DNA from: Romanomermis culicivorax
Taxonomy: Eukaryota; Nematoda; Enoplea; Mermithida; Mermithidae
Direction: 5' to 3'
Assembly (NCBI GenBank): GCA_963922205.1
Contig: CAWUHX010000376.1
Coordinates: 124,001 to 188,000 of the forward strand
DNA: 64,000 bases
In this document: positions 1 to 63,595 of the stretch, in pieces
Position numbering within the stretch: position 1 is the stretch's first letter
Layout: every line of letters starts with the position of its first letter
Made by a program: the position numbers and the translations under genes
Notes under the pieces: generated by a model
Seen by the model: the letters and a program-made list of their open reading frames with translations, nothing else
Database searches by the model: none
Told to the model about the DNA's origin: nothing

Positions 1-125
1 TGTTCAGTTGATTGCTAATAGGAAGCTCCTTTGAGTGACCTACAGTAGTTGATTGAGTACAAGCCGATAGGACTTGAGTCATATTGCTGACATCTTCGGA
101 TCTAAGCAGAGAAGTAAACATAACA
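1..125 (+). repeat. 3' part of the 5' LTR of a Ty3/gypsy element
   Basis: These 125 bases recur without a difference at 13429-13553, the end of the 3' LTR. The LTR end is placed at TAACA (121-125), an inverted match to the TGTTG with which the 3' LTR starts. The 5' part of this LTR, with promoter and target duplication, is off the left edge. Identity over this short stretch suggests a recent insertion. Confidence 0.9.
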
Positions 126-127
126 AG

Positions 128-145
128 TGGTGGCTTCTGACACTT
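128..145 (+). other. candidate primer binding site
   Basis: Two bases after the LTR end comes TGGTGGCTTCTGACAC. It begins with TGG, as expected for a site complementary to the CCA end of a tRNA primer. I did not identify the tRNA. Confidence 0.45.
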
Positions 146-219
146 GCAATACGGAAGAGCGCAGAGTCACTCGAGGTGTCACAAAACCTAAAGGTTTTTA
201 CAAAGACTTAGGGCTCAAA

Positions 220-3200
220 ATGTCCAAAAATGCTGAGGATCTAGCCTCTGGTACGACTTTGCCGAGGACTCCGCCTGGTGTAAGGCATGATGAGTCGGAT
301 AAATCTTTCCCACTGCCCGTGGTATCTAATACTACGAGCAAGCGGAAAGGCTCCGATTCAAGTGCCATAAGCCAGCGGGCTGAGGTAAAATTGGACCCAG
401 TAAGCGCTCCCACTTCCGTAGCGCCTATAATGGCCAGCAATAATACCAATAATATGGCCACGGCAAAGGAACCATTGACTGCCGACGATAGAGACGCTCA
501 ATTATTAGCGCCTATTGATAGAAGGCCGAAATTGGCCGAGGATCATATTGATCCATTTGATCAATTTAGAGAGGAACGTTTTCGACGACCTCGACAACGA
601 TTTGATACGTATCATCGCGAATACGTCAACGAAAATATGGATAATATTCGGGATGATTACCGTCATGATCCATTGGACGACTTACGATTCGAAATGAGTC
701 AAAAGGACGACGAAATTCGACGACTAAACGTCAAAATTGATAAAATGGCCGATTCGATGGTCGGAGTCCAAGGACTATTGGAAAGATTCGTCCTGGATCA
801 AAAGGAAAGGGATATCCGAGTGAGTATGACTACAGACAGACCATTGCAAACTCAGGATATGTGTAGAACTTTGCCAACGACGTCTGCAACCTGTATTGCC
901 AATGACCAAAGGTTACGGCAGATGGAAGCAGATATGTCAGAGCAAAAGTTCACAGTCAAACCTGCTGTGAAATCAAAGGTTTCTACGGAAAAACGGGTAA
1001 CTGAACCGCTTGCTGTTCGAGAACAAGCAAGTGATATAGTTGCTCAATTTTTCCAAGAGGCTGATGAGGAAGCAGCAGGTAGTCATAAGGAAAGCAAACA
1101 TACTACGTCGAAGCACAAACGATTCAAGAAGTCCACACGAGGAAATTCATCAGATTCTGATGACTCCTCAGTGGATGGATTGGAGCCTACTGTGTCAGAT
1201 ATAGTGAAGGCCGTAAAGCCAAAGCTACTCCTTGATGACATGACTGAGACACAAGTTCTCAGCTTCCTAAATGATTTAGGGGCAGAATTTACTTCAGAAA
1301 CTACTGATAAAATGAAGCTGGCTGCCTTACGAGCGCTTTCTAAGGGTGTACCGAAAGCTACTGCCAAAAGGTTCAAAAGTTACGAAAAAGCCCGAAGAAA
1401 GTTGCTCAAAGTGCAAGCTCCAGATTCAAATGTCGGTATGCAAACAAGAGAGCTGATGAACATAAAGCAGGAATTTGATGAAGCTCCAGTGAAATTCCTC
1501 AAGAGAATTAGTGTGCTAGTAGATAGATTGTATCCTAATAAGACCGAAGAGTTCAGAGATCGTTTCATAATTGATACCTTTTTGTATAAAGCATCTGAAG
1601 AGTATCAGATGGAGTTGCTAGATCAAAGAGAAAAGTATGAAACATGGCACGATTTAGCAGAGGATGTGCACAAGATTGATAAGCGGAACACAGCTGCTTA
1701 TAAAAAGAGAGGAACTCCGGAGTCTCCAATTGTGATAAATGAGGTGACGATGGGTGAAGGGCAAGCTGAAGTGGCTTATGTTGGTAGAAATAAATTTGGC
1801 AATGCCCCACAAAGGCAGTTTCAAAATAAAGCTATGCGACAGCAAGCAAGGAGAGAGAAGCAAGCCCCGATCCTAGTGTCAGAAAAGAAGGATTCCGATA
1901 CTTCTATAGAAGAGAGTAACTCACAGGGGACTCAAATGGCTACTACTCCCCAAAAGGGAAAAGAGCCTGAGGAACCTAGCAGTGATTCTGTTCTAGCAAA
2001 GTTATCACAGGAGATTGCGAAGTTAGCTCAGTGTTATCAGGAGATAAGCCAAAAAACTGATGCTAAATTGAATGAAATTTCTGCCAAAGTTAATAAGGGC
2101 AAACCCCAAAAACCTGGTGGAAATGAGTTCAGGAAACCATATTGTCGATACCATAGAAATAATTCTCATGACACGTCGGAATGTAAAACCCTTCAATGGA
2201 AAAATGCACAAGGACGTAATTGGGATAATCGATATGGTGGAAACAGAGGTTTCAGGCAACAGTTTGGAGGCTTTAGAGGAGGATATGTTGGCGGGAGCAG
2301 TAGAGGTGCTCATGCCGTAGGTTATTATGGTGATACCATGGATTATGATACTTATCAACGATTCATGGATTACCAGAATAGATTGCGGAATGAGCAGCTC
2401 TATATGGCACCACAACTGCCAGCCCCTAGCCAACAGCTGATGATCACAGCTCCCCCTCAAGGTCAGGTTCAAATCAGTAACCCTAGCCCAAGTGTGCAAG
2501 CCATTTCCAGTAGTCAACCATCCACGTCCAGTCAGACAGAGTTGGGATCTGCTGGAGGTGTTAATAGCATTGCCACTACGGGTCAAGGTGTTAGTGAGAT
2601 GAAATGGCCTGGAGTATTGAAGTGTGCCATGATGAAAGAAGATTATTCAAAGGTTACGAAAGCGTTCAAGCATGGGATAATTCCTAATCAGGAGGAACGA
2701 TTAAGGTTTTCTAAATTTCCTCGAACTCTCCCATTTCACATTAATGTGACCGTATGTAATACTAACACCAAGGCTCTAGTGGATACTGGTGCTCAGTGTT
2801 CGGTGATGTCTTCATGGTTTCTTAAGGAAGCTTTTGATGAAGAATATACCGGATATCCTGAGATACTAAAAGTCACTGTTGCTGATGGTGCAGTAGTACA
2901 TGCACATGGTTACATACAATTCAAAATGCATTGTGAATTTGGAGTTTTCTTGGTGAAAGCCATAATCATTCCTAATGCGGAGGAAAATCTCATAATTGGA
3001 ACGGATTTCTTAGCACATCCGGATGTTGGAGCAATGATTGATTTTGGTAAAGGTATCATGAAACTTAATGGAGTTGAGAAAGCTATAAGTGTTGTACCTA
3101 AAGATCACGCGAGTCATATACAAGCTATTGATTGTATAGGGGAAGCACCTATAGTACATTCAAGTCCTGAAGAGGATCAATACCCCAGGATCTGCCAATT

Positions 3201-6200
3201 AGGTATAGTGGTTCCAGTGGTATCATGTACGAAAGTATACGTACCACACGGAACTGATGTGCTTATTAAGGCAAGGTTATGGGAACGATCGTCTAAAACA
3301 GATCTCGATTGTTTGGTCATAGATGGAAACAAAGAAGAAAAGAAATTTAGAGTTGATAGCACACTGGTTGATGGTAAACGGGAAGACTTTGTTCTGATGA
3401 TTTCGAATAATACGGGTTCCGGATGCCAATTGCAACCTAATCAGGTTGTAGGCTACTGTGACTCAATATTACAAGAAAATTCAGGAGTATCAGACGTACA
3501 AAGTACGAGTTGTGGGATATTTAGTGTTGAAGATAATTTTAATGCCACTCCCAGAATGTCCGTGCATGATGCATTGGCATTTAGGGAAGCGCTATATAAA
3601 ATGATCTCCAAGGCTGATATCAATGAGGAATTAAAGGAAACAGCTGTAGCAAAACTGTCTAAATACAGGGATGTTTTCAGCTTACCCAATGATTCCTTAA
3701 CTACAACACCGTATCTTACGTGCAAAATTGATACTGGTAATGCAATGCCAGTGGCAAAACATTATTACAGAGCTCCCATTAACCAAAGATCAGGGATTAG
3801 AGCTCAAGTCCAAGACATGTTAGATAAAGGAGTTATTGAACCCAGCCGGTCACCGTGGGCTGCTCCACTTTTCCTAGTTGGGAAAAAGGACGGTTCCACG
3901 AGACCAGTTGTGGATTTCAGAGGTATAAATGAGGTTACTAAGGACGATAGGTACCCTATACCTAGAATGGACGATTATTTGGATTGTCTAGGTAATGCCA
4001 AATTTTATACCACATTGGATCTAAAGTCTGGATATTGGCAAGTCCCACTTGAGGAGAGTAGCAAGGAGAAAACTGCATTTATATGTCAGGAAGGCCTATA
4101 TCAGTTCAAAGTTATGCCTTTCGGACTTAAAAATGCACCTGCAGAGTTTCAAAGAATGATGGAGAGAGTATTGCATGGTCTAGTCTGGAGAATCTGCCTA
4201 GTATATATTGATGATATCATTGTGTTCTCCAAAACTTATGAGGAACATTTGGAGAATTTAGAGTTGGTCTTGCAAGCTCTTCGGAAAGCAAAGCTAACAC
4301 TTAAACCGGAGAAGTGCGAATTTCTTCCAAAAAGTGTTCATTTTCTTGGACACATACTGGACGAAAATGGAATCTCACCAGATCCGAAAAAAGTGAAGGC
4401 TATTACGGAATTCGAATTTCCCAATAGCGTTAAGCGTATGCAACGATTTCTGGGGATACTGCAATGGTGTAAGAAATTCATCCCAAACCTTGCAAATCTT
4501 GCAGAACCGTTGTATAAGCTTACCGCTACGGGAAAGAAGAAGTTCCAAGCAACAGAGGAACATCGCCAAGCGTTTGAAAAACTGAAAAAAGCACTCACCT
4601 CAGTGCCATTCCTACGGTATCCTGTTTTGGATGGAACTGCGGAGTTCATTCTCCAAACAGATGCCAGTGGAACTGCACTGGGAGCAGTACTTTATCAGAA
4701 GACTAAAGATGATCAATGGGTAATAGCCTATAGCAGCCGAATCCTTAAGGAAGACGAGAGGAAGTGGTGTGCTACAGAGCGAGAATGCCTAGCGGTTGTC
4801 TATGGTCTTAAAGTTTACCGGCACTATTTGTTTGGACAAAAAGTACTGATCAAAACTGATCATAAACCTCTCTTATCTATGAAAGTTAATACTCAAACTA
4901 ATGATAAGTTGAAAAGATGGTATTCCATTATAAATCAATTTAATCATAGGTTGGAGTATGTGCCCGGTAGACAAAACGCAATGGCCGATTTTCTCTCAAG
5001 AAAAGATGAACCCGAAGACGCTAAGGACAAAAACCCACCAAAATGGGAATATGTCTTCAAAATTCAATTTCGTAATTTCGGAACTCAAACCAATGAAGTT
5101 GAAACCCAAATACTGGTACAACAATTTCAGAGGATGAGGGACGAAGAGGTTGAAAGTAGAGACGAAAAAATTGTCCCCCAGCAGACCAAGGAATTGACGG
5201 ATATCCAGGAATTGACGGTAGGAAATGACAACATTGCACCAACTACCAAAGATGTATTGCAGAGCAGAAATGAAATGCAGAAGCTTACGGTAGTTGATGC
5301 AGTCACAACTAGAAGACAAGCAAAACTTCAGGATCAAAATGCACAGAATCAAGAACAGGGTACATCTGTACCCAATGATCCTGAAAACATTGCTTGGCTT
5401 TTCCCGAATAGAGAGAAGGAATTTGAAGAGGTGAAGGAAGGAGAGAAGGAAGAAAAGGATGATGATAAGATCGATTATCCAATTGATCTAAATGTTATTG
5501 CTCAATTGCAAAAAGAAGACACTAATCTTACCCCAATTTGGGAAAGATTAGGGGTCAAAAGCACTACGAAGTATCATAGTGGATTCTATGAGGATAACGG
5601 AGTTCTTTATAGGGAAACTGAGGGACGTGGCCATGATCAGATCGTGGTCCCGAATTCCCTCAGAGACAGCATACTTCACCAATATCACGGAGCCGTTATA
5701 ATGACACACCAAGGGTTCAAAAGAACTCTGGGTATTGTCAAACAGCGGTTCTGGTGGCCTGGCATTGAAAAAGATGTCAGAAATTGGTTGAAGTTTTGCC
5801 CTGTCTGCCAAGTGGCTACTCCCGGTAAAAGCTCCATATCCCCATTGATACCCATTATACCGGAGGGTCCCTTCGATATTGTGTCTGTGGACATAGTAGG
5901 GATTGCTCCCTTGAGGGAACGTCACCCATATGTCATTGTCTTTCAGGATTATTTCACTAAATGGGTTGAAGCTATATTGATTCCTGATCAGACGGCTGAA
6001 ACCATAGTGGATGCATTCTTAGAGCATGTGATATTTAGGCACGGTACCCCAAGAAAACTTCTTAGTGATAACGGATCTGGATTTAATTCAGATCTTATGA
6101 AAGCAGTCTGTAAACTGTTAGAGTGCAGGAAAATTTTTACAACAGCATACCACCCACAGGGTAATGGTATGGTTGAGAGATTTAACCAAACCCTAATAAA

Positions 6201-6825
6201 GCAGCTGCGAAAAGTTGCAATTGAGGATAACAATAAATGGCCAAGGTACCTCAGTGCAGTGGTATTTGCATATAATGCCACACCTCACGCAGCAACAAAA
6301 TGCTCGCCATTTTCACTGCTGCGGGGGCATGAAGCTAATTTTGGTATCAATTTCACTGCTGCTCTTAGAATAGTCATGCCTAATGACTATGAGGCTTATA
6401 AGTATGTTTTGACTACCCATCTTACAAATTTGTACGAAAGTATCGCCGAAAACATACAAAAAGCCGCTAAGGACAGCAAGAAATATTTTGATAACAAAAT
6501 TAAAACTTCTGGTTTTAAAAATCAAGATTGGGTTCTGTTGAAAGTAGACAGACAGAAAAAATTGGGGTTACCTTGGCAAGGACCATATATCATCATCGAT
6601 GATAGAAGATTGAAAGACAATGTGCTCACAATAGCGCATTGGAATAACCCGCTTAAAAAGCAGGTCGTATCGGCAAGTAGGCTAAAACACTTTCGATACG
6701 AAGGTACCAGATGGTCTCGACACGAAATGTCGCAGGTTTTCCGGGATACTCCAGTTAACGCAACTGGAAATCCCGCCGAAACCGAAGATCATCCGGTCAT
6801 TATTTCAGTGTCTAAAAATTTTTAG
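220..6825 (+). CDS. Ty3/gypsy Gag-Pol polyprotein, single frame
   Basis: One open frame of 2201 codons from the first ATG after the LTR; the frame is open from 127 but has no ATG before 220. Gag carries a CX2HX4HX4C knuckle starting at about residue 642. A retropepsin follows with DTGA (Asp near 855) and a later IIGTDFL. Reverse transcriptase has YIDD at 1329-1332 and ribonuclease H has TDAS near 1481. Integrase has an HHCC zinc site (H1820, H1830, C1860, C1863), a D,D35E triad (D1891, D1950, E1986) and a C-terminal WQGPY (GPY/F) module. The order PR-RT-RH-IN is that of Metaviridae. No stop or frameshift separates gag from pol, and every catalytic residue checked is present, so the element may be active. 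It makes the particle proteins and enzymes that copy and integrate the element. Confidence 0.95.
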   Translation: MSKNAEDLASGTTLPRTPPGVRHDESDKSFPLPVVSNTTSKRKGSDSSAISQRAEVKLDPVSAPTSVAPIMASNNTNNMATAKEPLTADDRDAQLLAPIDRRPKLAEDHIDPFDQFREERFRRPRQRFDTYHREYVNENMDNIRDDYRHDPLDDLRFEMSQKDDEIRRLNVKIDKMADSMVGVQGLLERFVLDQKERDIRVSMTTDRPLQTQDMCRTLPTTSATCIANDQRLRQMEADMSEQKFTVKPAVKSKVSTEKRVTEPLAVREQASDIVAQFFQEADEEAAGSHKESKHTTSKHKRFKKSTRGNSSDSDDSSVDGLEPTVSDIVKAVKPKLLLDDMTETQVLSFLNDLGAEFTSETTDKMKLAALRALSKGVPKATAKRFKSYEKARRKLLKVQAPDSNVGMQTRELMNIKQEFDEAPVKFLKRISVLVDRLYPNKTEEFRDRFIIDTFLYKASEEYQMELLDQREKYETWHDLAEDVHKIDKRNTAAYKKRGTPESPIVINEVTMGEGQAEVAYVGRNKFGNAPQRQFQNKAMRQQARREKQAPILVSEKKDSDTSIEESNSQGTQMATTPQKGKEPEEPSSDSVLAKLSQEIAKLAQCYQEISQKTDAKLNEISAKVNKGKPQKPGGNEFRKPYCRYHRNNSHDTSECKTLQWKNAQGRNWDNRYGGNRGFRQQFGGFRGGYVGGSSRGAHAVGYYGDTMDYDTYQRFMDYQNRLRNEQLYMAPQLPAPSQQLMITAPPQGQVQISNPSPSVQAISSSQPSTSSQTELGSAGGVNSIATTGQGVSEMKWPGVLKCAMMKEDYSKVTKAFKHGIIPNQEERLRFSKFPRTLPFHINVTVCNTNTKALVDTGAQCSVMSSWFLKEAFDEEYTGYPEILKVTVADGAVVHAHGYIQFKMHCEFGVFLVKAIIIPNAEENLIIGTDFLAHPDVGAMIDFGKGIMKLNGVEKAISVVPKDHASHIQAIDCIGEAPIVHSSPEEDQYPRICQLGIVVPVVSCTKVYVPHGTDVLIKARLWERSSKTDLDCLVIDGNKEEKKFRVDSTLVDGKREDFVLMISNNTGSGCQLQPNQVVGYCDSILQENSGVSDVQSTSCGIFSVEDNFNATPRMSVHDALAFREALYKMISKADINEELKETAVAKLSKYRDVFSLPNDSLTTTPYLTCKIDTGNAMPVAKHYYRAPINQRSGIRAQVQDMLDKGVIEPSRSPWAAPLFLVGKKDGSTRPVVDFRGINEVTKDDRYPIPRMDDYLDCLGNAKFYTTLDLKSGYWQVPLEESSKEKTAFICQEGLYQFKVMPFGLKNAPAEFQRMMERVLHGLVWRICLVYIDDIIVFSKTYEEHLENLELVLQALRKAKLTLKPEKCEFLPKSVHFLGHILDENGISPDPKKVKAITEFEFPNSVKRMQRFLGILQWCKKFIPNLANLAEPLYKLTATGKKKFQATEEHRQAFEKLKKALTSVPFLRYPVLDGTAEFILQTDASGTALGAVLYQKTKDDQWVIAYSSRILKEDERKWCATERECLAVVYGLKVYRHYLFGQKVLIKTDHKPLLSMKVNTQTNDKLKRWYSIINQFNHRLEYVPGRQNAMADFLSRKDEPEDAKDKNPPKWEYVFKIQFRNFGTQTNEVETQILVQQFQRMRDEEVESRDEKIVPQQTKELTDIQELTVGNDNIAPTTKDVLQSRNEMQKLTVVDAVTTRRQAKLQDQNAQNQEQGTSVPNDPENIAWLFPNREKEFEEVKEGEKEEKDDDKIDYPIDLNVIAQLQKEDTNLTPIWERLGVKSTTKYHSGFYEDNGVLYRETEGRGHDQIVVPNSLRDSILHQYHGAVIMTHQGFKRTLGIVKQRFWWPGIEKDVRNWLKFCPVCQVATPGKSSISPLIPIIPEGPFDIVSVDIVGIAPLRERHPYVIVFQDYFTKWVEAILIPDQTAETIVDAFLEHVIFRHGTPRKLLSDNGSGFNSDLMKAVCKLLECRKIFTTAYHPQGNGMVERFNQTLIKQLRKVAIEDNNKWPRYLSAVVFAYNATPHAATKCSPFSLLRGHEANFGINFTAALRIVMPNDYEAYKYVLTTHLTNLYESIAENIQKAAKDSKKYFDNKIKTSGFKNQDWVLLKVDRQKKLGLPWQGPYIIIDDRRLKDNVLTIAHWNNPLKKQVVSASRLKHFRYEGTRWSRHEMSQVFRDTPVNATGNPAETEDHPVIISVSKNF

Positions 6826-7238
6826 CGGAAAATGCCGTATACGTGTATTTTATGTGAATAAAATTTTTATTTTCTGTGTTATTTAACCGATTTATATTCG
6901 TTTAATACCTTTCTTAAATTTTGGGTAGCGAAGGGTCAAATTTTCAGAATAATATTGTTAATTTGTACACCCGACGCTAAAATTTTTGGATTACATTCTG
7001 GGAGGTTTACGACCAATTTTCATTTTCAATTTCAAAAGTCGTGTTTTTTCTTGTGCTCCGCGTCGCACAAAATTTTCGGAACAAATTTTTTCGTCCAGCC
7101 CAAGGACCCGATAAAATTATTTTTGGTAATTCCGTATATTGTATCGATATTGAAGTAACGATAAGTGTTCCTTAACATTTTGCTTACTTTAGAAGATACA
7201 ACGCGGAATTTTAGAAAAAATTTAAAAAATTTTTTAAA
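6826..7238 (+). other. AT-rich spacer between gag-pol and the accessory gene
   Basis: No supported gene. AATAAA-like sequence at about 6858 could end a gag-pol transcript. AATTTTAG at 7207-7214 lies 25 bases before the accessory ATG and could act as a 3' splice or trans-splice acceptor. Both are inferences from short motifs. Confidence 0.4.
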
Positions 7239-10200
7239 ATGTCGAAATTAGGTGTTGCGCCTTTCGCGCGAAATTATTGCGCACACGCCGACCACATCAA
7301 GGCGGGCCAACCGCAAGGCCGCCAAAACAATCGTTATTTTTTGACCGACGGTAAGTTTTTATTTAATTATTTCTTGGTATGTGGGACGAATTCGCCCATT
7401 TAGGTGTCTTAGGAATGATTTCTTCACGCTCAATTTTCTGAATGGGCCAACCAAGGGGAAAACGAGTTCGAAGAAAAGTTTCTAAAAATGTTAGGGTAGG
7501 TGAAAAGAAAAAACCTAATGGATTTACGGCCCTAAAAAGCCAAAATCTAATGGTTTTTACCTTGGATCCGATTCCGAAGCATTTATTTTTGGTTTTATTA
7601 AAGCCCCTGGTCTACTAAATTTATTTCTTGGATTAATTAAAACCTTAATTGGTTATTTATTCATTACTTAATTTTGGTACCGAGGCGTGAAGTTATCGCT
7701 AGGGTAAGTGGTAAATTGACGGCGGCCGACGTCGAGAAGCGAAAGGTGGTGCAGATGTGAGGTTCCTGAAAAATTGGTGTAGCATTTGCGTTAACCACTG
7801 GGCCTGCTTACTTTATGACTTTGACACCTAACCTCACTAATTAATTTATTTTTCCCCACGCTAAATCTTTTTTCTAATTTGGTGCCGGTCAAAGTTGATT
7901 ATTTATTTGGTGGTGGTGGCCTAATGCCTGATTTATAAAGGGTCAAGGGGCAAATTCTTTTTGATTTTTAGATTATAACATCAAGCGTCTGGTCCGCGTC
8001 GGAGAAATCGAACAATGGTTCGCCGGCGCGATGGGTTATTGGCCGCAACGACCAATGGAACCCGAACAGGTTCACGGCGGCAACGTCGAACCGATCCTGA
8101 AGCAATTGGCCACAAGCCAGTTTCGGGGGCTAGGCGTTGTCGGATTTGACGTCGAAAAGGTCAAGAAGACCGAGGTATGTATTATACCTTATAAGGTAGC
8201 GATCCAGAACCCGGAAGGGAAAGAGTTCGCTAGGCTGGTGTCATTTGCACACATAGATGGTTCCAGCTTTGTGATCGACCTTACAACATTGAAGCCGCAG
8301 GAATGGGATCATTTGATTTCATTCCTGGCATCGGTGGATCGTTTCTTGGTCGGTTTCAAAGTTGTGGACGATCTGGTTGCAATTTTGAATGTCTACGGAT
8401 CCGGGTCAGGGGCCTCGGCTCATGATAAGACGAAAATTATACAGGCCCGTATACTCCAAGGATTTGGAAAATATTGGGACTGTGAAATTTGCGTCAGATT
8501 GATGACGGGGCCCATGGCCAATCACGCTCGTGATTTAGGATTGTGCCCTGAAAACCTTGGGTTAAAAGGACTTTTCACCGAATTTTACTTGGCTGATGTC
8601 GGCAAATACCAATGCGACTTCGGTGACAAAAAGATTCGAGAAAAGTTCTTGGCCCCCAAGATTCAAGACACAGAAATTGTGTATGCTGGCCTGGACGCCT
8701 ATTATTCAATTGCCGTATTTTTAGGGTTCTTTCACTACGGGTTTTGCGGTGAATTGAGTGGGGTTACGGCAACGTACCCCCATGATATTGTATCGCCGGC
8801 CCAAGTGAAGACCGTGGCCTTCCGTTTCTATACGGTGTACTCTCAAGACCTAACGGGGTTCGAGGATCGAAACTTCGTAGATGAGAAGGACATCGTAAAG
8901 AGGCAGTTGTTCAAGGTCTACCATATGATGCGGCAAGAGGTAATGGCCAGGTGGGCTACACAATTTCATAATGACTTGCCAGAATATGCGTGTCCTGCGG
9001 ATATTAAAAATCCCGCTAAAGCTACGGACCACACTTTACTGTCTGGGATTTATCCCAAGGCGCTAAAAGCTGGTCCAAGCAAAAAGAAAACAAATCAGTG
9101 GGAGGACGTAAGTGATCCGGAGGACATGGATACAATGGAACAACAAGTCAATAGGACAAACGAGGTGATAAACCGACTGCACACAGAAATGTTGCAAGGG
9201 GTTTCATTTTTCAAATTAACGGATCCTGTAGATGTTGTATGGTATATCACAGCCGGTCTTGCCATGAACAAGACTCCTCGACAGGACTGGTCGAAGCAGC
9301 TTCAATCGTTTCAACTCGGAACGGACTGCTACGAACCAGTGGAAATCGACACCGGTATGGCTAAGTACGACAGGGATCATTGGATGGCGGACTTGAGGAA
9401 TTATGAGCATGTCATGGACTCAACAAAGTTCCCTGCGTTGGAAAAGGCATGCAACTTAATTCCTCTACCATTCTTTGTTTTCTGGCCTCATAGCTGTGCC
9501 GAGTACGATTACATACTGAGGGAATTATTGAATTATAATTTCCTCAAATCCTACTCGAAGGAGGATGCAGAATTAATAAAGAAGATGGCATGGAAGACCG
9601 ATGACAGGGTTTTACAGAATTACGACCTAGTAGCATCCTTACCGCCAACGGAACCTGAACATGCTGTAAAAGGCAAAAGGGTTACGACCTGGCAAAACAG
9701 GTTTGGTTTTATGCCTATTCGGTTGCGCTTGCGCGACAAAATAGGTTCTCCAATTTCGACGGAAAAAGCAAAGGACAATATTACCCATAACAAGGATTAT
9801 TGGGCCAACTGCTTTTTCTACGTCAGATTCTACTATGCGGAATTCGGTAGTAAAACCCCGTCACTGCGATATGGCCTATCACCAGACACGCCTACTCTTC
9901 AAACGGGTCAGATCAGATGTATACCGGCGGATTATCCCTTGTATACTATTGAATTTCCTGAAAAGTGTATTCACCGGAGGCCTCTGCCGTCGGAATTACC
10001 CATGGTTACCTATTCATACGGTAATCAAACCAAACAATCTGATTTCAGGACGAAATCCGATATACTAGACCCTGATAATGAACCCACAGTTCAAACGGGT
10101 CTAGTGGACGAGGACGTCACGGAATTGGAGAGTGAGGAGGAAGATAATTCCGCATTCCTGGGAGAGGAAAGCTGCAAGGAGGTTGACGACGAAGACGCAT

Positions 10201-11981
10201 TATTGTATATTTCGATCGCCGACCCCCAAGTAGCCGAATCTGCGGTCACAGCACCTTCTGTCACGCAGTTGCAACCGCAACCACAAGTTGTGACGCAGCT
10301 GCAGACAGAAATGCTGCCGCCGCCGCCTGGCTTACCTACACCACAAGTCACACAAACATCTATGGATGCAAGTCAGTACTTGTCTAGTGTAGAAAGTCAA
10401 GCGCAATCGGAAGAAATTCCGATTACCCAGGACGAGCAGAACGTCTATGATCAGGCATATATTAATGAGTACATGGATGCCGAAGGTGGAAAGAAGAAAG
10501 AGGAAGAGCAGACGGCAGGGATACCTAGCCATACTGTGGTGGAAACACCACAAGAGCTAGCGGCCCGGCTGGCTGAAGAGGATAAGGAAATTCAAGTATT
10601 AGCCTTGACCTGGGACAAAGAAGGTGTTCCCGGATACTATACTGCTGAGGCGATAAAAAATATGAAAATAAAAGGATTAAATGATAGGCAAATTTTCGTT
10701 AACTTGAAAAAGAAACGAAAAACAAAAGCCCGTCAGGAGAAGAAGAAGGTGGAAAAGGCAATTGCGCAGCCTGCAAAGGTTACGCAGCCGAAACCCGCCA
10801 AAACTTCTGCTCCGGCTTCAGCAACGGTATCCGTGACCACCGTATCTTCGACTACTCCTGTATCGCAGACTGTCTCTACAGGTACTTTATCGATGGCAAC
10901 GAGTCAGTCCACGCAATTTGTGTCGCAGGCTACGGACACCTCTGCTTCCGGACGGCGTCAGCCTAAGGTGCAGGGAGCTCCTAGCAAGCCACAGGTTGCA
11001 GGACAAAAAGTTCAAATCTTTACACCAGGAAAAATAAAGCCGTTAACTCTGGTTACTGTTGACCCAAATCAACAAACACCAGAAATGACGGTGAAGTTAT
11101 TCCGGGATGTATTGTTGGACTTTTGGCAAGTAACCAAAGATAAAAGTAGAGCCAGAGGTCCAATTTCTTTTGCTACACCGGAATTGGCGAATTATTTCTG
11201 CGACGAGCAGTTCGAAGACCCAGAGATTTGGCTGATGGTCAATAAGGCGGTCAGGACTATATACAAACTGTATCAGCCACAGTTTGATGTCCAAGGTGGA
11301 TTTTTATACGACTCGCGAAATATTCCAGAGCCACTATGGGATAGGATCATTCGTGAGATTGTCCTTGAATGGCTCACGGAATATCGAGCGAGCGTCGTAT
11401 TTGCAGCTGTCAGATATTTATGCATGATGATATTCCTTATGCTTGACTATGCACCGCTTACGGCTGAGCAGATCGGTAAACGATCAGTCTCAGCCAAAGT
11501 GTTTGCAAACATCATGCTGTTACAGGAATATCGGAGTGCCACTGCTTCGGATGTTTTCAAGACTGCCTATCGCTTGGTGATGTATAACTACAGTCAACAA
11601 GCGGCGGAGATGGATGTCAAAAGGTCAGGTAGCCCAAGTCCTCCGACTACTGTTAAGTTTAGCAAAGTTCAGAACGATGCGGGACAGACCTTTCGGGCAC
11701 CCGGACCCGCAAGCAGTCAAACTGGTGGTCAAGGAGCCACGGTTGGTATAGCCAACCAGGTCTTCGCTGGCCCCAGTTCTGGCACTGGGCAAGCCTCCAG
11801 AACCGTTCCGAAACAACAGCAACCTATACAGCATCTACAGGGTGCTAGGGGAGCTCGTGGAGGACGGGGAAGGGGTGCCCAACCAGGCCAGTTTCATTTT
11901 AACAATCCGAACAGGGGCAGAGCTGGTTACGTTGGTGGCCGAGGTATATACCGAGGACAACACCCTCGTGGTGCATTCTGA
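7239..11981 (+). CDS. retrotransposon accessory protein: DEDDy 3'-5' exonuclease with RGG tail, two exons
   Basis: Spliced frame: exon 1 7239-7350 (37 codons plus one base), exon 2 7972-11981, about 1373 aa. Donor GACG|gtaagt and acceptor gatttttag|AT join in frame to code for Asp. The N-terminal part reads as an RNase D/WRN/EXD-type exonuclease: GFDVEK gives the DxE pair (D97, E99 in the spliced protein), VGFKVVDDL gives the exo II Asp (near 171), and YAGLD gives exo III YxxxD (Y275, D279). A Leu/Gly-rich NLGLKGLFTEFY precedes it, as in the family. The middle is unrecognised. Residues of about 740-1090 are acidic, then Gln/Pro/Thr-rich and Lys-rich. A folded-looking block follows, and then an Arg-Gly-rich tail that suggests RNA binding. 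No signal peptide or membrane segment is seen, so it is not env-like. It lies between pol and the 3' LTR, where some gypsy elements have env. The exonuclease call rests on motifs, and the role is unknown. Confidence 0.8.
7351..7971 (+). other. intron of the accessory gene
   Basis: 621 bases starting gtaagt and ending gatttttag, a good nematode-type acceptor. It has stops in the reading frame. Removing it extends the exonuclease frame upstream by 57 residues to an ATG. Confidence 0.75.
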
Positions 11982-12035: not shown

Positions 12036-12938
12036 ATTTTAGCCGCCAAAATTTTGGTCAAAAATCCTCCATTCTTGACTCCATTTCATTTATTCAAAAA
12101 ATACAAAAAACACAAAAACATAAAAAATCACAAAAATCCAAAAACATTATAAAACATAAAATACAAAAATATTATTTAAACTTTTGGTTGTGTTGTTACC
12201 TTTCAAAAATCTCATTTTTTGGCCAAGCTCATCGCTTGAGTCCACATTTTTGATTTAATATTTCTTTCACTTGTTTTTTGCATTTCGTATTTTTTCTCGT
12301 ATTTTAATCTCGTCATTTTGCCTCGTATATTTTTCTTGTCATTTTTTCGGTGTCTTGTAAATTTTTCTTGTTATTTGCGCCTCGTATTTTAAAATTTTTG
12401 CTCAATATTTTCTCGCCCTACTAGTTTTGTAAATATTTGTTCGTCATATCGTATTTTAAATTTCTCGTATGGAAAATTGGCGACGAACCGAAAGGGGCGA
12501 CGGAGCGGACGAAAGTAGCCGATTACTGCAAGGATTGGGACACTGCTGCCAAAGACAATCCACATCACTCAATGGGACGAAGCGATCGACTGTGGAGGAA
12601 GGTACCTAGGAGCCTCAAGGCACGCTGGCGAAGCCAGGGAAAAGTCAAGCCGATGCAGAGTCGTCGATCCGTCAGATGCTGGATCAGTGATCGATCGTGC
12701 CGCGGCATGTCAGTGGACAGACCTAGGTAACCTTGTAAAAAGACTTGACGTTGGAGGTGGTCTTGACCCGTACACCCTTCGGGGTCAGGTCAGGACGATT
12801 ATGACCCGTACACCCTTCGGGGTCGGATCATAGTCCCTTTAAGTTGGGATCCAGTAGTAGGTCACACCGTAAAAGGTAAAAGTCCTGCTCACGGTTTCCT
12901 TCTTCACCTCCCGTTGGTCAGTTTCAAGGCCCGAGGGA
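12036..12938 (+). other. 3' non-coding region of the gypsy element
   Basis: An A-rich block (about 12085-12180) is followed by T-rich sequence repeating TCGTATTTT (about 12280-12470). A 23-base direct repeat with a small ACCC-TTCG-GGGT hairpin core lies at 12764-12786 and 12802-12824. The short run CCGAGGGA at 12931-12938 directly before the LTR is the candidate polypurine tract. I see no convincing gene. Confidence 0.5.
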
Positions 12939-13553
12939 TGTTGGGGATGTGCTTACGGCAGTAGCAATCCCACATCTATGCAAAATTGGTGAATCGACAA
13001 AGTTACGATTCCACCAAAAAGGAAGAAAAACATTCATTCTATTCGTGTTTACCTTCTGCAATTTGGTGTGTTTCGGGCGAGTCGCGTTCGTTATAAAATT
13101 GTATTGTACTGTTTCGCCTAGTAAAGGCAGACGCTGACAGCCCCACACCATATTTGCATATTATTATTATATTAATTATTTATTATTTATACTATTATTA
13201 TTTCTCGCGCATTGAGCGGTTGGAGGGAGTCGTCTTACACGGGAGCCAAGCCAAGGTGAAGCCCCAGTCCTTTTGGATATTATTGAAGTGAGTTCTGTGT
13301 ATTTGTGTGAACCTTTAGGAGGCATCTGGGGAGACCCTGAGTGCCCTTCGATTGCAAGAGTTAGAGTTTCCAGTTACTTATTGGTGACTGAAGGTTGTGT
13401 TTATTTCTGCTTAAGGACTGTTGCACTGTGTTCAGTTGATTGCTAATAGGAAGCTCCTTTGAGTGACCTACAGTAGTTGATTGAGTACAAGCCGATAGGA
13501 CTTGAGTCATATTGCTGACATCTTCGGATCTAAGCAGAGAAGTAAACATAACA
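12939..13553 (+). repeat. 3' LTR of the gypsy element
   Basis: 615 bases, starting TGTTG and ending TAACA. The start was fixed by comparison with a diverged solo copy at 38735-39395, which begins with the same TGTTGGGGATGTGCT. A TATAAAA box lies at 13092-13098. The last 125 bases equal the visible 5' LTR. Confidence 0.85.
13092..13098 (+). promoter_or_regulatory. TATA box candidate in the LTR
   Basis: TATAAAA about 150 bases into the LTR, a usual position for a U3 promoter. Seen once; no other promoter evidence. Confidence 0.4.
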
Positions 13554-13652
13554 ACACTTTTTTGCCAATTTTTTCTAATTTTTTCCAAACTGGGGGGGGG
13601 TTGGGTATATGGTTGGCCAAGTTGGGCCCCCCCCCCATCACTTACAGGTATG
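13554..13652. mobile_element. right half of a CATACCTGTA MITE, split by the gypsy insertion
   Basis: The sequence resumes directly after the 3' LTR in the middle of an element also seen at 15945-16180 and 58787-59031 (the ACTTTTTGCC... run, G/C homopolymers) and ends ACAGGTATG. The left half should lie beyond the left edge. ACACT after the LTR may be the right target duplication. Confidence 0.65.
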
Positions 13653-16500: not shown

Positions 16501-19500
16501 CTGTAAAACATAGAATTATATTGGCGCTAGTGCGCAGGGCAAGTCGGTTTTCCTACCAACACACAGTTGCCCTTGCGGAACAAAACCCTTGGAGCATTGG
16601 CACCTGTAGCTGCCTATTGTGTTTATACAATCGGAATGGCTGGTGCATTGGGCGATGCCCCGTTCGCATTCCGGTACATCGACGCAGGCCACCGGTTCGG
16701 GCATGTTGGGCATAAGTTCTTCGAAACCTTTGCCGCAGACGCAACGGTAGCTGCCGATTGTATTGACGCAGTACGTGTTAGCATTGGGGCAAACCCGCAT
16801 ATTGAGCTGAGTACATTCTTCGATATCTGTTACAAAAATTATTTCTGAAAAGACTGTTTTTTTCAGTTTACAAGATGATTCAATTGGATGTAGAGCGTGT
16901 ATAATGAAATATAGTATGAAGCAGACAAGAGCCTTGGGAGTAGTTATTCAGGCTCATTTAGGCAGTACACAAAAGATGGGTATTTCCATGTGAGCATGCT
17001 AACACATTAATGTAAATACATATTGTACACTATGTGATACTCGTTTATTAATTATAAATTCATTTCATAATCTATCGTCTCAAGAGTATCTGGGATTCAC
17101 ACCCAAACATTCCTATAAATTTATGTGAAGTACTTTGTTTTGATCATCCCACTCCCTGGTAGCCGTTATTGACCCAATTAAGACGCTCTAATTAATTTGC
17201 ACATCGGCAGCTGGTCCCCTAGAATCTACATTAAAGTACACATTCCACGGCTACCGTAATTCCCAATAAAAATCGTAAACACGCCTGCACACAGTAAAGA
17301 AGTAAAAGCCGCGCCAGACATTAGTCTCAAGTGGAACAGTAGCCATGGTTCCTACAAAACATGTATACCCAGAGGAAATAGATATAGAAGCATATACGGA
17401 AGCACAGAGGCGTGGTCAAGTCCACAGTAGGAAGCAAGCATAAGAGAAGCATAAAAGCATAGGGTACCAGAAAAGCATTGGAAGGCGTGACTAAACAAGC
17501 GAAGCAGAAGAAGCAAGAAGCAGCGATTGGCGGAAGAAGATTTTCGGAAACAGCCCTCCCAGGAGCCAAGGGAGTGGCTAAAAGAAGCAGTATTTAAAGA
17601 GAAGCAAAGCGTGATTCCGTCAGATTTTATGAAAGCATGTCTTTTTTCAAAAGGGAGATTTGGAAAGCATTTAAGCAAGATTTGTTTTTATTGCAAAGCA
17701 AGCGTAATCGTATTTTTGGCGATGAGAAAGCAATCGTCGTTATATCGTTTTGTTATTATTGTTGTCGTTTTATCATCATCCTCCATAGTGTTGCCTCCTC
17801 GTGGACCATGTTAAGTGTGACATCATGATCAAGTAAAAGTATCATTAGAATCTGGGTGCTACAAGCGATTCCCAAGTGAGCGAATTTCTAAGTGAGCGAA
17901 TTTCTAATTGGGCGATTCCAAGCAAGTGATCGATAATGTAGTAACACTTGTCACGTGCTGCTCAATTCTCCAACATCACCTGATCCTCATCATGCTGATA
18001 CTTTATTTTTGCCGTCACTTTTTATTTTTTCAATCATTTACTTTATGTTTGTTTCGTTTATTGTTTTGCACATGGATTTTTATGTTTTGTTCATTATTGT
18101 ACTTCCATTTATTTTGTTTCTTTTTATGCACATGGGCTACAGTACGCCCTTTAGCTAAAACTTCCGCCAAAATGTGCTTCACGTGCACATGGCTATTTTA
18201 GGTGCATTCCATGCACCTCTTATCACCTAAATTAGTGTCGTTTTTGTTAGGCAAAAATGACTAGCTAAAAAGTTTAGTTAAAGATGCTGCTATGCTTAGC
18301 ATAGGCACTGCCAGTCGGCCTCAGTGCTAAACACATGCGAGCGAAAAAATGTCTATGTGCTCATAGGCATCTTGTGCATGGCATCTAGCTGCAGAAGTTA
18401 GCTTGGGCGTCGAAAACTCCGCCCAGGCCTAGGTCGAAAACTCCGCCCAGGCCAGTGCTGTAGCCAACAAGGTCCTTAAAAGGACATGTTTCTTTAGTTT
18501 TTCGCTCACTTTTGGGTTAACCCACTTTCGTCCATTTGTTTTAGCTTTGCATCTGCCGCCATCAAATTTACATATTTTTATCATATACACTTCGCGTTGG
18601 CCGCCCTTCATTTACATATTCCTACGCAACGTTTGTGCCAGGTCACCACCCGCACGCTTTATATAATAAAGAGAGTTGCCACCAGCCTCCTTCGTTCGTC
18701 TTCTATTGAGAAACTGAGTCCGTTCATACCCCACCTGTTTGCCCGTTGAATAACCACCAGGGATCCCATGGCCCTTCATCGAAGTCGTTTGAGAAACAGG
18801 ACTAGGTGAGTCTTCTCAGGGGATTATTGTTGTTGTGGGTATATTTTTGGGAACCCTTTCTAAGTCGGTTTTGCCCAGATAAGTAGGGCCTTTTCCTTTC
18901 TGATTTGGGCTAAAACAGGGGTCCCAGAGTTTGGGTCGTTTTGATGACCTTGTCCCTGTTCACACTGAGCAGGACCTTGGGATTGTCACTCCTAACCTGG
19001 TGGCCTTGTCTATTACTTTATAGCAGCACCCAAGGACAGCACCAGAGTACCCTATAGATCTTCCTATAGCCAGTACCAGCTGGCTTAGGTTCCCAAACAA
19101 GGGAAAAAGCCTCCTGTTAGGAGTCGCAGCCTGTCACTCACTGTGATAGGGTCAAACTGACGTGATTCTCCATCAATGTGACTGGAAAATGGTGTTTTCC
19201 ACCTAATGTGACATGGCTTTTTTCAACTTGACGTGACATTTTCTTCGTATGTTCTTTCTTTACCTTATATGTTTGTGTATTTTTTTCTTTGTTTTTTGTG
19301 TGTATTACTAATGTTTTCGTTTATGCATGTTTTTCCGTTCTCATCTTTTGTCTCTGTTTTATTTTACTTTCGATTTTCTTTTCATCTACTTTTTTCTTTT
19401 TTGCTCATTAAATTACAAGTTGTTACTTTTAATAAGCATAGTCTCCCGTATAGTTCTTATACACTTTGGCACGCTTTATTTTCTAAATAATTTTATCCTT

Positions 19501-22500
19501 TGTGATTTTTTTTGATTATTTTTCATCTTAGTTTTTTTGCTTTCAATCTCTCCTGATTTCTTTTTTGTTCTTTTTCACATTTTTTTCTTTCTTTCTTGCT
19601 GCTTTCTCTATGTTGCTTCTTCTTTCTTGTCACTGTCTTCATGTTTTCTTTCTTATTTTAATGCTTTTCCATCTATTTTCACTTATTCTTAATGTCTTCT
19701 TTTTTGTTGACATTTCCTTTCTCTTGATGTTTTGTTGGTTTCAGCATTCTTTTGTTTATGCTTTTCATGATGATTTTCAAACTTACAACGATGAAAGACT
19801 CAAGCTTGCGGAACTATGCTAGAATTGTACAGTAGACTGCGTTTATTTAAAATGACAACTTGTAACGTGTTGTTTCATGAGCGAAAAAGAAAAAAGTAGA
19901 TGACAAGAAAAAGGAAAAGGAGATAAAGCAGAGACAAACGATGAAAATGTTAAAACATAATAGGAGAAAACGTTAACCATACATCAGAAAACGAAAGAAA
20001 AAAGAAATACATACAAATAAAAATGATAGGTAAAGAAGAAAAATATGAGGAAAGTCTCATTACATTCTCGATTGTTGGTTTGGAATCACCCAATTGCGAA
20101 TTTGCTCACTTCCAAGCTTGGAAACTCACTCCCTCTTCCTCTCTCTTGTATTCTTTGTCCCTCCACCCCTTCAGTTCTCCATCGGGTTTCTTCCTCCGGG
20201 AACTCGCACATAGGACTAAGGTTCCAGCTTTCCTCAGGTCCCACTCCAGGACTAGGATTGTTGGCGCCTCTTCAACAACTCTCTCTCTGTCATCATTGAC
20301 CGACAATCACTCCATGTGATGTGCCCTGTGAGGTTCAAGGGGGGATAACTAGTAGCGTCTCTTCACCTACAGTACCCCTGGGCCTGTGATTCCCATAGCA
20401 CCTTTGGGCCCTCTTTCATGAGGCACAGCCACCTCTCCTTACTCCCTCCTTACATCCCTCCCAATGTCACAACCATCTGAAATTTGGTAAGCATGTGGGG
20501 TGATACAGGGCAGGGGGGTTTAAAAAGTACACCTGAAGCTTCAATGTGTAAAATTAGAGTTCCGTGTAGAAAGTACGCCAGAAGCTTCAAACCATAAAAT
20601 TTGACATCCATGTAGAGAGTATGACTGAAGCTTCAAGGCGTAAAATTTGTGTCGTATGCCCAAATCCACATGGCCAGCACGTCAGAAAAATAATGCTCGT
20701 TGACGGGCTCGAACCCTGGACTTTGTGCAGACAAGGCAGACCTGCTACCAACCGCTCTAACCGAGCCACGTGGATGGTTCAGAAATTGTGGTTGTAGTGG
20801 TGGTGGTGAGTGCGGGACATGCCGCGTAATGAATAGCCAGATGCATCACTGCAACATTCGACTTCCATGTAGAAAGTATGCCCAAAGCTTTAATGGGTAA
20901 AATTCGTATTTTCACAAAAAATTCCTTAAAAAAACTGAGTAAGATTGTTAGATTGTTAGATTCTATGACCCTCAGCCTTTTTTCTAAATTTTTTGGGGGA
21001 TTTTATTTCATCATCAATTTCAACGTACAAATTGGTTGAGGAACATTGATTTGGAATTTTACCCATTGAGGCTTCAGGCCTACTTGCTAAATGGAAGTCG
21101 AATTTTACACATTGAAGCTGCACGCCTACTTTCTAAACTAATATCAGGCTCATGCTGTTTACTGTAGCCTGTAGCATTTCTAGGGCCATATAATCAAACA
21201 GTCAAGTGACACGTATTGGGTATCGCGTTGCCATTGTAACCCTCGCCAAACACTGTTCGAAAAATAATACTCGTCCAGGATTTGAACCCCGGTCTCTGTG
21301 ACTATAGTGCAGTGTTCTTCCATTTGAACTACCGAGTTAGTGTTGCGATTGTTACAAAGGGGTGATGTAGGGCGGTGCGACAGGTGACACAAGATTCTCA
21401 GGTTCATTCTGCTTACTGTAGTGTACAGTACTTATAGTGCCATAGAATCAGACACACAAAAATCTCAGATTCATTCTGGTTACTGTAGTCTGTAGCACTT
21501 TTGGGTCCATAGAATCAAACAGTCAAGATTCTCAGGTTCATTCTGCTTACTGTAGTCTACAGTACTTTTAGGGCCATAGAATCGGACACACAAAAATCTC
21601 AGATTCATTCTGGTTACTGTAGTCTGTAGCACTTTCAGAGCTGTGGAATTGAACAGAAAACAATCTTGGATTGTGATTACTCTAGTGTATGGCACTTTTA
21701 GAACAGTAAAATCAAACAGGCTGCATTCTCAGGTTCATTCTGGTTACTGTAGTGTACATAGAGATGTATCGGGTCCAAAATCTTGAAAATATGGGGTTCG
21801 GGTCCAAAATTTCAAGAATACCGAGTTCGAGTCCGGATCCAGGTCCAAAATTTTAAGGATATCAGATCCGTGTCCAGGTCCTGGTCCAAGTACGAAACTT
21901 TAATATCTGATCCCGGTCCAGGTCTGGGTCTCATTTCGGGTCTGGGTCCCCCAGATACATCTATAGCGTAAGGTACTCTCAGGGGCCTAGAATCAAACAG
22001 TCAAGAATCTCAGGTTTGTTTTGGTTAGTGTAGAATAAAACACTTTCCTAACTTTTTCACCTTTGCATCCATTGACCAGTCCATTGCCTGTGAATCCACG
22101 TTTACAAAAACATTCCAATTGTTTCCCGTTATGCAAGTGAGGTACCCGGTCGATACAGCTTGCGAATTCCGGATCGCAATTATTCAAATCCATCCTCAAA
22201 CATTCGTCGATGTCTAATTTTTTCAAGAGTGAAAAGTGATCAAATGCAAAAAACGACACAAATAGGTATACTGTATTACTGTGGCATTGACCGTCAGGCA
22301 TCATCATATAACCCAGGTTGCATTTGCAGGTGAAAAGTTTGGGATCCCTATCATCGGGTACGCAAGTTTGCTTGAGCGGGTCGCAACGGCTGCAATCTAG
22401 AAATGAGACAGATTCAAATGAAACTTGCGGATCATTTAAACAAATGCTTACTGTGGGCTCTAACGACTTGGGAAGCTATGAAAAAAAGAAGATTCGCATG

Positions 22501-25500
22501 ATTGAAATTAGGCTTACTGTAGCTTTTTGGGCTTACTTTCTACGCATCTTTGACCTTGTTGAGTATACCCTTTAAGGCAAATACAGGTAAACGTGCCCAT
22601 AGGTGTTTTACGACATTGCGAAAATGGTACCACCAAACAGGGGTTCGATTCGCAAGGATCAGGCCCTGAGGTAAAAATCGATAGTGTGTAAATAGAAATC
22701 ATGGAAAAATCTAGTTTACAATCTTACTGTAACATGATCGACCATCACCCATGAAACCCACTTTACACCGGCAAGTGTAACCTTCCAGTCGACTGGCGTC
22801 ATTGATACAGACGGCATTGATTTTGTCGCATAGATTTTTGTTGGGATCACCGCATTTGGGTTCAACTTGGCATGCAGTGTCGCTGCCCATAACCTAAGTT
22901 GATACAATGTTTACTAGTTTCTAAATTGTGTTGATTACAAATCAGTTGTGTCTAAGGCTTAGGCTTAGGCTTAGGCTTAGGCTTAGGCTTAGGCTTAGGC
23001 TTAGGCTTAGGCTTAGGCTTTGGCTTAGGCTTAGGCTTAGGCTTAGGCTTAGGCTTAGGCTTAGGCTTAGGCTTAGGCTTAGGCTTAGGCTTAGGTTTAG
23101 GCTTAGGTTCAGCCGTGAGCATAGGCTTAGGCTCAGGACTCACTTTCACATATCCTGGCAAACATTGGCACATGTATCTATTCTGCGCAGGCGTAAGTAT
23201 GCATCGCGTGGTACCCGGTTGACAAATTTTACAGTACGAATCGTCAGCTACACAAAAAAGTGTACTGTACATTTTTTGAAGTCACGTGACAACCAACTTT
23301 TCCCCGCATACCTTTGCAAGAAAATCCATCGCCGACGAAACCGCTTTTACATTCGCAACTGTAACTGCCGGGCGTATTGATACAATTGGCGTTGGAATTG
23401 CACGGCTGATCTTGGTACGACGTTTCTGTACATTCGTCGATATCTTCGCAATTTTTCGAATCGATTTTACGAATATTGCCCGGCAAACAGACGCAAACGT
23501 AGGAACCGGGTTTGTTTATACATTTGGTGTAGGTGCCGCAGGCTTGGGGCATAACGATGCATTCGTTGGTGTCTGCAAGAGAGAAAGGTCATGTCAAGCA
23601 GGGTGGGGGCAGTGATCAGTTGGAGGTTATGTTTTGTCTTCAGTTAGAATCTGGAGTCGGAGGAAGTTTTTTACCTTCTAAAGCCAGGGGTCATATGAGG
23701 ACTTTGGCAAGATGGTGCCCAACACTGGATGAGACAGGAAGTTGGATGTGACTGGAAGCTTGATGAGGCTGGAAGACAGATGATGCCAGATACTGCAGGA
23801 GGCTGCAGGCCAGATGAGATCCGGGTCTGGATGTTGCTGAATGAGGCCAGAGGCTGGATGAGACTGAAGCCCCCTCAAGCCTGAGACTGAATGAAGCTGA
23901 ATGCTGGATGAGGGTGTAGGTCTCATTAGGTTAGAGGTCAAATGAAGCCCTATGTTCAATGAGGGTGTGGGCCAGATTAGACCAGATACTGGATCAGGCT
24001 GGAGGCCGGATGAGGTTAGAGGCCAGATGCTGCGTGACACTGGAGATGGCATGAGGCCGGAGGCCGTGTGAGGCTGGATGCAGTGTGAGGCCTATAAGAT
24101 CAGAGGCTTGATGAGACTGGAGGCCAGATGAGGCCAGATGCTGTGGCATGCTGGAGGTGGTGTGAGGCTAGAGGCCAGATGAGATCAAAGGCTTTATGAG
24201 ACGGGAGGCCAGGTGAGGCTGGAAGCTGGGTAAAACTGGAGGCTTGATGAGGCTGTTCATCAGATGAGACTGAATGAGATGCCAAAAAAAGTCTGGCTGG
24301 AGGAGCTCAGAGCAGCTGGCAGAGGCCAGTCCATCACTACACAAAGATACTACACCTTTTAGGAAAAAATAAGCAAGCTTACCGACACAAGGCTGCGATA
24401 CTGTACCAGGCGATGGGGCACCTTGCCAGCCCAGTCGACAGCGACATTCGTAACCGGGTCGTTTGTTGAAACAGTCTGCATTGGAGTCACATTCGGCAAT
24501 TCCTGATGTGCATTCGTCCACTTCTAAAGTGCATTAGTCAATGAAAAAGAAATATAATGGAAGTTTGGTAAAAAAGCTAAAGTAATCTAGCTCGGAATTT
24601 GTGGTAGATGTTTTTGAGATGTTTGCACCTGCACATCATGCTTGTAGTTTTTGGGCATGTGACTTTTTCCCACACTTTTGTTATGTTATTTTTCGTCCAC
24701 CGTTGGACTATGCAAATTTATATGTGTGTTGATTTTTGTGTATAAACTGTTAGGCATTTGGCATTTTCTATGTTACTTTTCTTTTATCGTGGACTATGCA
24801 AATTTATATGTTTGTCATTTGTTGTGTATAAATTGTTAGGCATTTGTCATTTTTTATGTTAGTTTTCTTTTATCGTGGACTATGCAAATTTATATGGGTG
24901 TCATTTTTTGTGTAAATTGTTAGGCATTTGCATTTTTTATGTTAGTTTTCTTTTATCATGGACTATGCAGATTTATATGTGTGTCTTTTTTCGTAGTTAA
25001 GCATTTGGCATTTTTAATGTTAGTTTTCTTCCATCATGGACTATACAAATTTATATCTATGTCTTTTTTTGTGTATAAATTGTTGAGCATTTGGCATTTT
25101 TTATGTTAGTTTTCTTTTGTCGTGGACTATGCAGATTTATATGTGTGTCTTTTTTATGTAAAAATAGTTATGCATTTGGCATTTTTTGTCCACCCTGGAC
25201 TATGTGAATTTATATGTGTGTCATTTTTCGTGTATAAATAGTTGGGCATTTGGCATTTTTTATGTTAGTTTTCTTCCACCATGGACTATGCAAATTTATA
25301 TGCATGTCGTTTTTTGTGGATAAATTGTTAGGCATTTGGCATTTTTTATGTTAGTTTTCTTCCACCCTGCACTATGCAAATTTATATGTGTGTCTTTTTT
25401 CATGTATAAATAGTTATGCATTTGGCATTTTTTGTTATTTTTTGTCCACCCTGGACTATGCAAATTTATATGTGTGTCATTTTTTGTGGTTAAATTGTTA

Positions 25501-63581: not shown

Positions 63582-63595
63582 GTAAGAAAATCTGG

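Follow-up and report, generated by a model that had tools for sequence, protein, structure and literature searches.

The first 13.5 kb of a 64,000-nt stretch of contig C376 (CAWUHX010000376.1) of the nematode Romanomermis culicivorax, hereafter the window, whose numbering is used for coordinates unless otherwise stated, constitute a single, young Ty3/gypsy long terminal repeat (LTR) retrotransposon. Between its pol gene and its 3' LTR lies a predicted two-exon open reading frame (ORF2) whose N-terminal domain is, to judge from its sequence, of the DEDDy 3'-5' exonuclease type with a complete active site. A second, distant LTR family of this genome, which we term family B to distinguish it from the window element and its relative (family A), also carries an exonuclease ORF; strong purifying selection acts on the enzyme domain of family B, whose catalytic residues hardly vary. 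We found no earlier evidence of selection on a DEDDy gene of this kind in an LTR element in the literature surveyed, and the family B selection result is the main advance over earlier work. We consider it likely that ORF2 encodes a multidomain DEDDy protein in the ORF3 or env position that acts as a nuclease serving the element.

The window element and its exonuclease-type domain

The whole 5' LTR occupies contig positions 123511-124124, with its first 490 bases outside the window and its 3' end at 1..124 (plus strand, as are the other features of the element given below). Compared over the upstream stretch, the two LTRs, each of 614 nt, are identical at 613 of 614 positions, and a 126-nt exact repeat pairs window positions 1-126 with 13429-13554. 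The 3' LTR (12939..13552; TGTTGGGG...AACATAACA) has the TG...CA termini expected of such repeats and is followed by a target-site duplication, ACAC (13553..13556), the same four bases preceding the 5' LTR. The gag-pol region (124..6825) is a single open frame of 2233 codons from stop to stop in which Pfam places protease, reverse transcriptase (RT), RNase H, and integrase between the LTRs in the gypsy order (gag-asp_proteas, 9e-8; RVT_1, 7.5e-41; RT_RNaseH, 6.5e-32; Integrase_H2C2, 4.2e-19; rve, 7.6e-13). The RT-RNase H piece is 41-56% identical to the best 120 relatives listed, and the named proteins among these are mostly gypsy proteins of spiders, insects, and fish.

ORF2 is predicted to comprise exon 1 (7239..7350) and exon 2 (7972..11981, stop included), separated by an intron (7351..7971; GTAAGTTTTT...TTTTTAG) that begins with GTAAG; the spliced frame encodes 1373 aa and contains no inner stop. 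We infer this two-exon model from the quality of the donor and acceptor, from the opening of the exon 2 frame 7 nt ahead of the acceptor, from the 13, 13, and 15 stops in the three frames of the intron, from GC content at third codon positions (GC3; 0.57 in exon 1 and 0.55 in the exonuclease part versus 0.35 in the intron), and from the pattern of similarity to a sister copy, in which the alignment starts at residue 31, is weak and crosses a stop before residue 38, and becomes strong from the start of exon 2 (DYN). A long region of unknown kind lies between the N-terminal exonuclease domain and the C-terminal part of the protein, which ends in a tail rich in RG and RGG (11838..11978; eight RG/GR dipeptides in the final 60 residues). 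The claim in the initial annotation that the product has no membrane features is slightly inaccurate: by hydropathy the N terminus is not hydrophobic, and the C-terminal region has one hydrophobic stretch (residues 1177-1195, 11388..11444; Kyte-Doolittle score, 2.16), which is also kept in the sister copy. No significant similarity was found between gag and ORF2.

The exonuclease domain spans ORF2 residues 60-315 (8037..8804) and displays motif I, DxE (D97 and E99; 8148..8156), motif II (D171; 8370..8372), and motif III, YxxxD (Y275 and D279; 8682..8696), each invariant in alignments A3 and A4 (20 and 23 rows, respectively); the window copy has the full set of five catalytic residues. In a profile comparison, for which the P value of 1.7e-6 was obtained after 80 bacterial relatives had joined the profile, the domain scored 44.8 against at most 25.4 among 300 shuffles. 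With hhalign it ranked above all of these 300 shuffles and above each of 13 further segments of the element, and with hmmsearch it outscored 2000 of 2000 shuffles. Smaller subfamily profiles were weak, shuffles doing equally well in 15 of 2000 cases for RNase D/NrnC and in 6 of 2000 for WRN/EXD2; combined, they were matched by none of 2000. An AF2 model built with the exonuclease alignment adopts an RNase H-like exonuclease fold for which the EXO domain of Nibbler is the top Foldseek match, although WRN and DNA polymerase I have equal structural scores; EXD1 and Egalitarian are also among the matches. The likeness to proteins of the WRN, EXD2, RNase D, and Rrp6 class lies in the fold and the catalytic residues, whereas identity in structural alignments amounts to 12-20%. 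A protein tree did not place the domain, whose branch, 5.12 changes per column long, leaves from an open fork with no closer subfamily resolved, and the suggestion that the element captured a host exonuclease was not borne out by this tree.

A decayed family A relative on contig C388 carries the ORF2 gene after pol, and comparisons within family A are between these two elements. Its pol is 73% identical to that of the window element in RT-RNase H, 59-77% in integrase segments, and 46% in protease; for ORF2 the values are 45% over residues 31-130, 34% over 119-747, and 38% over 1091-1254, or 28% over a longer gapped alignment. The ORF2 gene thus diverges, as far as one sister copy can tell, far faster than RT and at about the pace of the protease or faster. 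Residues D97, D171, Y275, and D279 are kept in the sister. Neither its gag, which was sought in the C388 stretches examined, nor its LTRs were found. Because a pair of LTRs with a target-site duplication encloses the gene in the window, and because the sister has it at the equivalent place, ORF2 belongs to the element; the one further copy available carries the gene, which speaks against the one-off insertion that the initial annotation had named as a refuting outcome. Most of its other claims have also held: a gypsy retrotransposon is evident from the LTR pair, the target-site duplication, and the Pfam domains of pol; the env position from the location of the gene after pol and before the 3' LTR, in the sister as in the window; an intron-containing gene at 7239-11981, as predicted splicing; the RGG-rich tail from its dipeptide count; and a DEDDy exonuclease from the hhalign and hmmsearch controls and the presence of DxE, D171, and YxxxD.

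A second LTR family and selection on its exonuclease

A search of the genome (359 Mb in 595 contigs) with PF01612 yielded at least 80 matches at an E value of 0.001 or better, among which window ORF2 is not found. The 30 best-scoring of the 80 loci were examined, and all 30 belong to family B; the weaker 50 were left unclassified, and host genes may be among them. Integrase lies upstream in 28 of the 30 examined loci, and an LTR match is present in the examined stretch in 23. LTR pairs that are 96.6-99.8% identical flank the family B ORF in six of the seven neighborhoods examined; in the neighborhoods on C69 and C440 the pair is cut by the edge of the sequence examined, and on C313 there is no pair. 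The ORF, of about 609 residues, is situated between integrase and the 3' LTR, as exemplified by locus L101 (G000:C388:148001-158000, 2280-9764), with 29 further loci, and in the three ORFs scanned PF01612 scores 38.9-41.7 bits against a gathering score of 23.6 (E values of 1e-9 to 1.4e-10). The family B pol frame contains a zinc knuckle, RNase H, and an integrase zinc finger and is 28% identical to that of family A where the two can be aligned; no RVT_1 match was obtained in the whole C388 frame or in codons 1-520 of the C69 frame. Family B is probably non-autonomous, with no recognizable RT in these frames.

Catalytic residues were counted at the 26 loci whose exonuclease match spans 260 residues, three of which contain stops: both motif I and motif II aspartates, the tyrosine, and the final aspartate are present in 26 of 26, and the glutamate is present in 24, being replaced by a stop in one locus and by Q in another. 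Of 325 pairs of these copies, 210 had a usable synonymous divergence (dS), and over these the median ratio of nonsynonymous to synonymous divergence (dN/dS) for the exonuclease is 0.075. Against one reference, a design in which the individual values are not mutually independent, median dN/dS is 0.047 in the exonuclease (20 of 21 loci usable), 0.173 in the remainder of its ORF (19 of 21), and 0.554 in RNase H-integrase (16 of 20). Rows with dS below 0.1 or undefined were dropped and stop codons were left out; many dS values are near saturation, and synonymous distances above about 1.5 are rough. Second codon positions of the exonuclease differ by 0.004-0.092 versus 0.062-0.506 at fourfold sites, while in RNase H-integrase variation at second positions is on a par with that at its fourfold sites and in the LTRs. 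Silent substitutions have accumulated in family B around an unchanging enzyme domain and active site, which suggests that nuclease function matters for the spread of the element.

Two features of family B do not fit a simple account of selection. Only 10 stops occur among the 11,062 codons compared in RNase H-integrase, too few for this frame to be plainly dead. In the exonuclease ORF the median difference at fourfold sites is 0.20, about twice the 0.11 of the LTRs. In loci L107-L126 and L103 the median p at fourfold sites is 0.20 in the exonuclease ORF and 0.23 in its tail, and the corresponding medians are 0.11 for the LTR and 0.12 for RNase H-integrase; such a pattern could arise if nucleotides are constrained elsewhere, if the copies are mosaic, or if selection favors silent change.

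Function, precedents, and competing explanations

Nematodes possess the best-studied transposon silencing based on RNA-dependent RNA polymerase (RdRP), and a nuclease of this fold, MUT-7, takes part in it. We propose that the ORF2 protein would be made from a spliced or trans-spliced mRNA and would be a nuclease acting most likely on RNA, a substrate favored by the RGG tail and by the presence of RNA enzymes among the structural matches, although the DNA-acting WRN and DNA polymerase I are equally close structurally. Such a nuclease might trim RNA of the element itself at its 3' ends, or it might degrade host small RNAs or their templates in RdRP-driven silencing. Given action on RNA, we lean slightly toward processing of the element's own RNA or handling of its ribonucleoprotein, and counter-silencing falls a little short of an even chance; interference with the small-RNA defense is something that we infer. 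A broader proposal is that at least two distant LTR families of this nematode lineage keep a catalytically active DEDDy exonuclease against RdRP-amplified silencing, with the exonuclease as the most strictly selected gene of family B and with a family A gene whose fast divergence (34-45% identity by segment versus 73% for RT) would suit a contest with the host; we advance it tentatively and judge it, as a whole, rather unlikely. Whether transposons use an exonuclease against the defense or for their own RNA is a testable question.

A number of results weigh against a nuclease role for the family A gene, or against its link to family B. As a single sequence, the window ORF2 domain gave no Pfam match up to an E value of 10, within HMMER filters, and did not reach the PF01612 gathering score, and no homologue emerged from a word-based search of 5.8 billion proteins. 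NCBIfam gave one chance match and PHROGs none, phmmer against the PDB gave only weak matches to alcohol dehydrogenase and Psb28, and single-sequence searches of viral contigs, phages, and plasmids gave nothing. The initial annotation had named the lack of an exonuclease match in a profile search as refuting; the single-sequence Pfam search indeed gave none, and the profile alignment with controls overturned that outcome. The AF2 model was steered by the exonuclease alignment and is partly circular, and AF2 without an alignment was useless (pLDDT of 36.6 and no sensible fold match). In the sister ORF2, E99 is Q, K249 is L, and stops are present; taken by itself, its exonuclease piece aligns with the family profile over no more than 18 columns (P of 0.0015). 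Family A may therefore have lost this activity or be able to do without it. The selection result, moreover, concerns family B only. A specific relation between the exonuclease domains of the two families is not supported, with blastp E values of at least 4 against five family B ORFs and an hhalign P value of 0.02 (above 100 of 100 shuffles); since the two share little beyond the superfamily, they would represent either two acquisitions or a very old split.

An exonuclease ORF in LTR elements is already known from rotifers, and two distant families of a nematode now add to these. The Juno and Vesta LTR elements of bdelloid rotifers carry an RNase D-like DEDDy ORF3 that was acquired at least twice and that also occurs in Athena elements (PMC5408684), Athena/Terminon being Penelope-like elements with a DEDDy ORF (PMC5408684, PMC6431247); the initial annotation knew of no described gypsy group with this gene, yet these elements are already on record. 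The window element and family B resemble Juno and Vesta in bearing a profile-recognized RNase D-like DEDDy ORF as ORF3 of an LTR element, placed in the window between pol and the 3' LTR, and this genome resembles those of bdelloids in having DEDDy ORFs in different element lineages. The differences are that the host is not a rotifer, that the window protein has 1373 aa and a predicted intron, and that the dUTPase found in pol of three of the four bdelloid lineages does not appear when the gag-pol pieces are compared with Pfam. Two roles were suggested in the rotifer study, 3'-end processing of element RNA and silencing in the manner of mut-7, and its authors doubt a self-limiting role (PMC5408684); activity of the bdelloid exonuclease ORFs is undemonstrated. 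With MUT-7, Nibbler, and EXD3, ORF2 shares the DEDDy exoribonuclease domain (PMC11347159); Pfam searches detected no MUT7-C domain in ORF2, and that domain is not universal, having been lost in drosophilids (PMC11347159). No nematode element with such a gene was found in the open-licence PMC literature, judged by title and the start of the abstract, with subscription papers and preprints outside that survey.

A nematode parallel is Cer1 of Caenorhabditis elegans, whose spliced 3' ORF, CERV, must be present for genomic RNA to be exported (PMC10309623), and the ORF2 domain could similarly be an RNA-binding module without catalysis that exports or packages unspliced genomic RNA. Cer1 is a nematode gypsy element with no stop between gag and pol and an extra spliced 3' ORF, and CERV has an enzyme-like fold; in the window element, too, gag and pol share a single frame, and the intron predicted for ORF2 would have to be kept in genomic RNA. 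The RGG tail, the presence of EXD1 and Egalitarian among the structural matches, and the Q at position 99 of the sister are compatible with such a role, as is the report that EXD1 and Maelstrom are inactive derivatives (PMC5408684). CERV itself, compared by description only, has 517 aa and five exons, three of them in the gag frame, and is G-protein-like without critical catalytic residues, and the available text of its source mentions no exonuclease domain (PMC10309623). Since RNA binding alone would need none of the five catalytic residues, which are intact in the window and near-invariant in family B, we regard this alternative as unlikely, though one to be taken seriously. The family B exonuclease might instead be conserved for the host, as a domesticated multicopy gene, a reading consistent with the lack of RVT_1 in the copies scanned and with an RNase H-integrase dN/dS of about 0.55 beside a tightly constrained exonuclease; it is improbable, given that the copies are dispersed between LTR pairs of 96.6-99.8% identity, so that the gene moves with the element, and that the nearly stop-free RNase H-integrase frame is not simply dead.

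For ORF2, its position and its one conserved hydrophobic stretch might suggest a degenerate or novel env whose resemblance to exonucleases is irrelevant, but the lack of a hydrophobic N terminus, the exonuclease homology with a complete active site, and the RGG tail make this very improbable, and env was dropped as a candidate. Still more remote is a chance insertion of a host gene or an assembly chimera, to which the GC3 of ORF2 (0.45-0.57 versus 0.36-0.38 in gag-pol) lends some color; it was dropped in view of the paired LTRs with their target-site duplication around the gene and of the sister element with the same gene at the equivalent place.

Other features of the element and its surroundings

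Within gag-pol (124..6825) a zinc-knuckle-like CX2HX4HX4C near 2143, labeled by eye from the sequence, and an RG-rich patch can be recognized. AATAAA occurs at 6857..6862, 32 nt past the pol stop, and at 12031, 50 nt past the ORF2 stop; none was found in the LTR. The two may serve as poly(A) signals, hinting at separate messages, or may be due to chance. A stretch containing GAGGGA immediately before the 3' LTR (12926..12938) is a candidate polypurine tract, and two 29-nt direct repeats with a TGACCCGTACACCCTTCGGGGTC core lie between ORF2 and the 3' LTR (12764-12830). A tRNA primer of the element was looked for and none was identified. A fragment at 39212-39298 that resembles the end of the LTR (75.6% identity over 90 nt) is a trace of an older relative.

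The contig contains 88 matches of the doubled TTAGGC unit and none of TTAGGG, TTAGG, TTTAGG, or TTAGGT; TTAGGC is the telomere repeat of most nematodes (PMC9071541), in keeping with a nematode host. Interstitial TTAGGC arrays at 22955-23137, 33042-33488, and 63595-63775 create long LRLRLR/PKPKPK frames. A 3.7-kb array of a 17-nt AT-rich unit with a GC content of about 15% occupies 28409-32081, and a tandem array of units of about 250/494 nt at 43393-45575 contains eight Rfam tRNA matches, of which ARAGORN assigns five to tRNA-Thr(TGT). On the minus strand, three frames within 16516-32867 with EGF-type matches, one of them a weak match to EGF_Mua-3, probably belong to a host extracellular-matrix gene.

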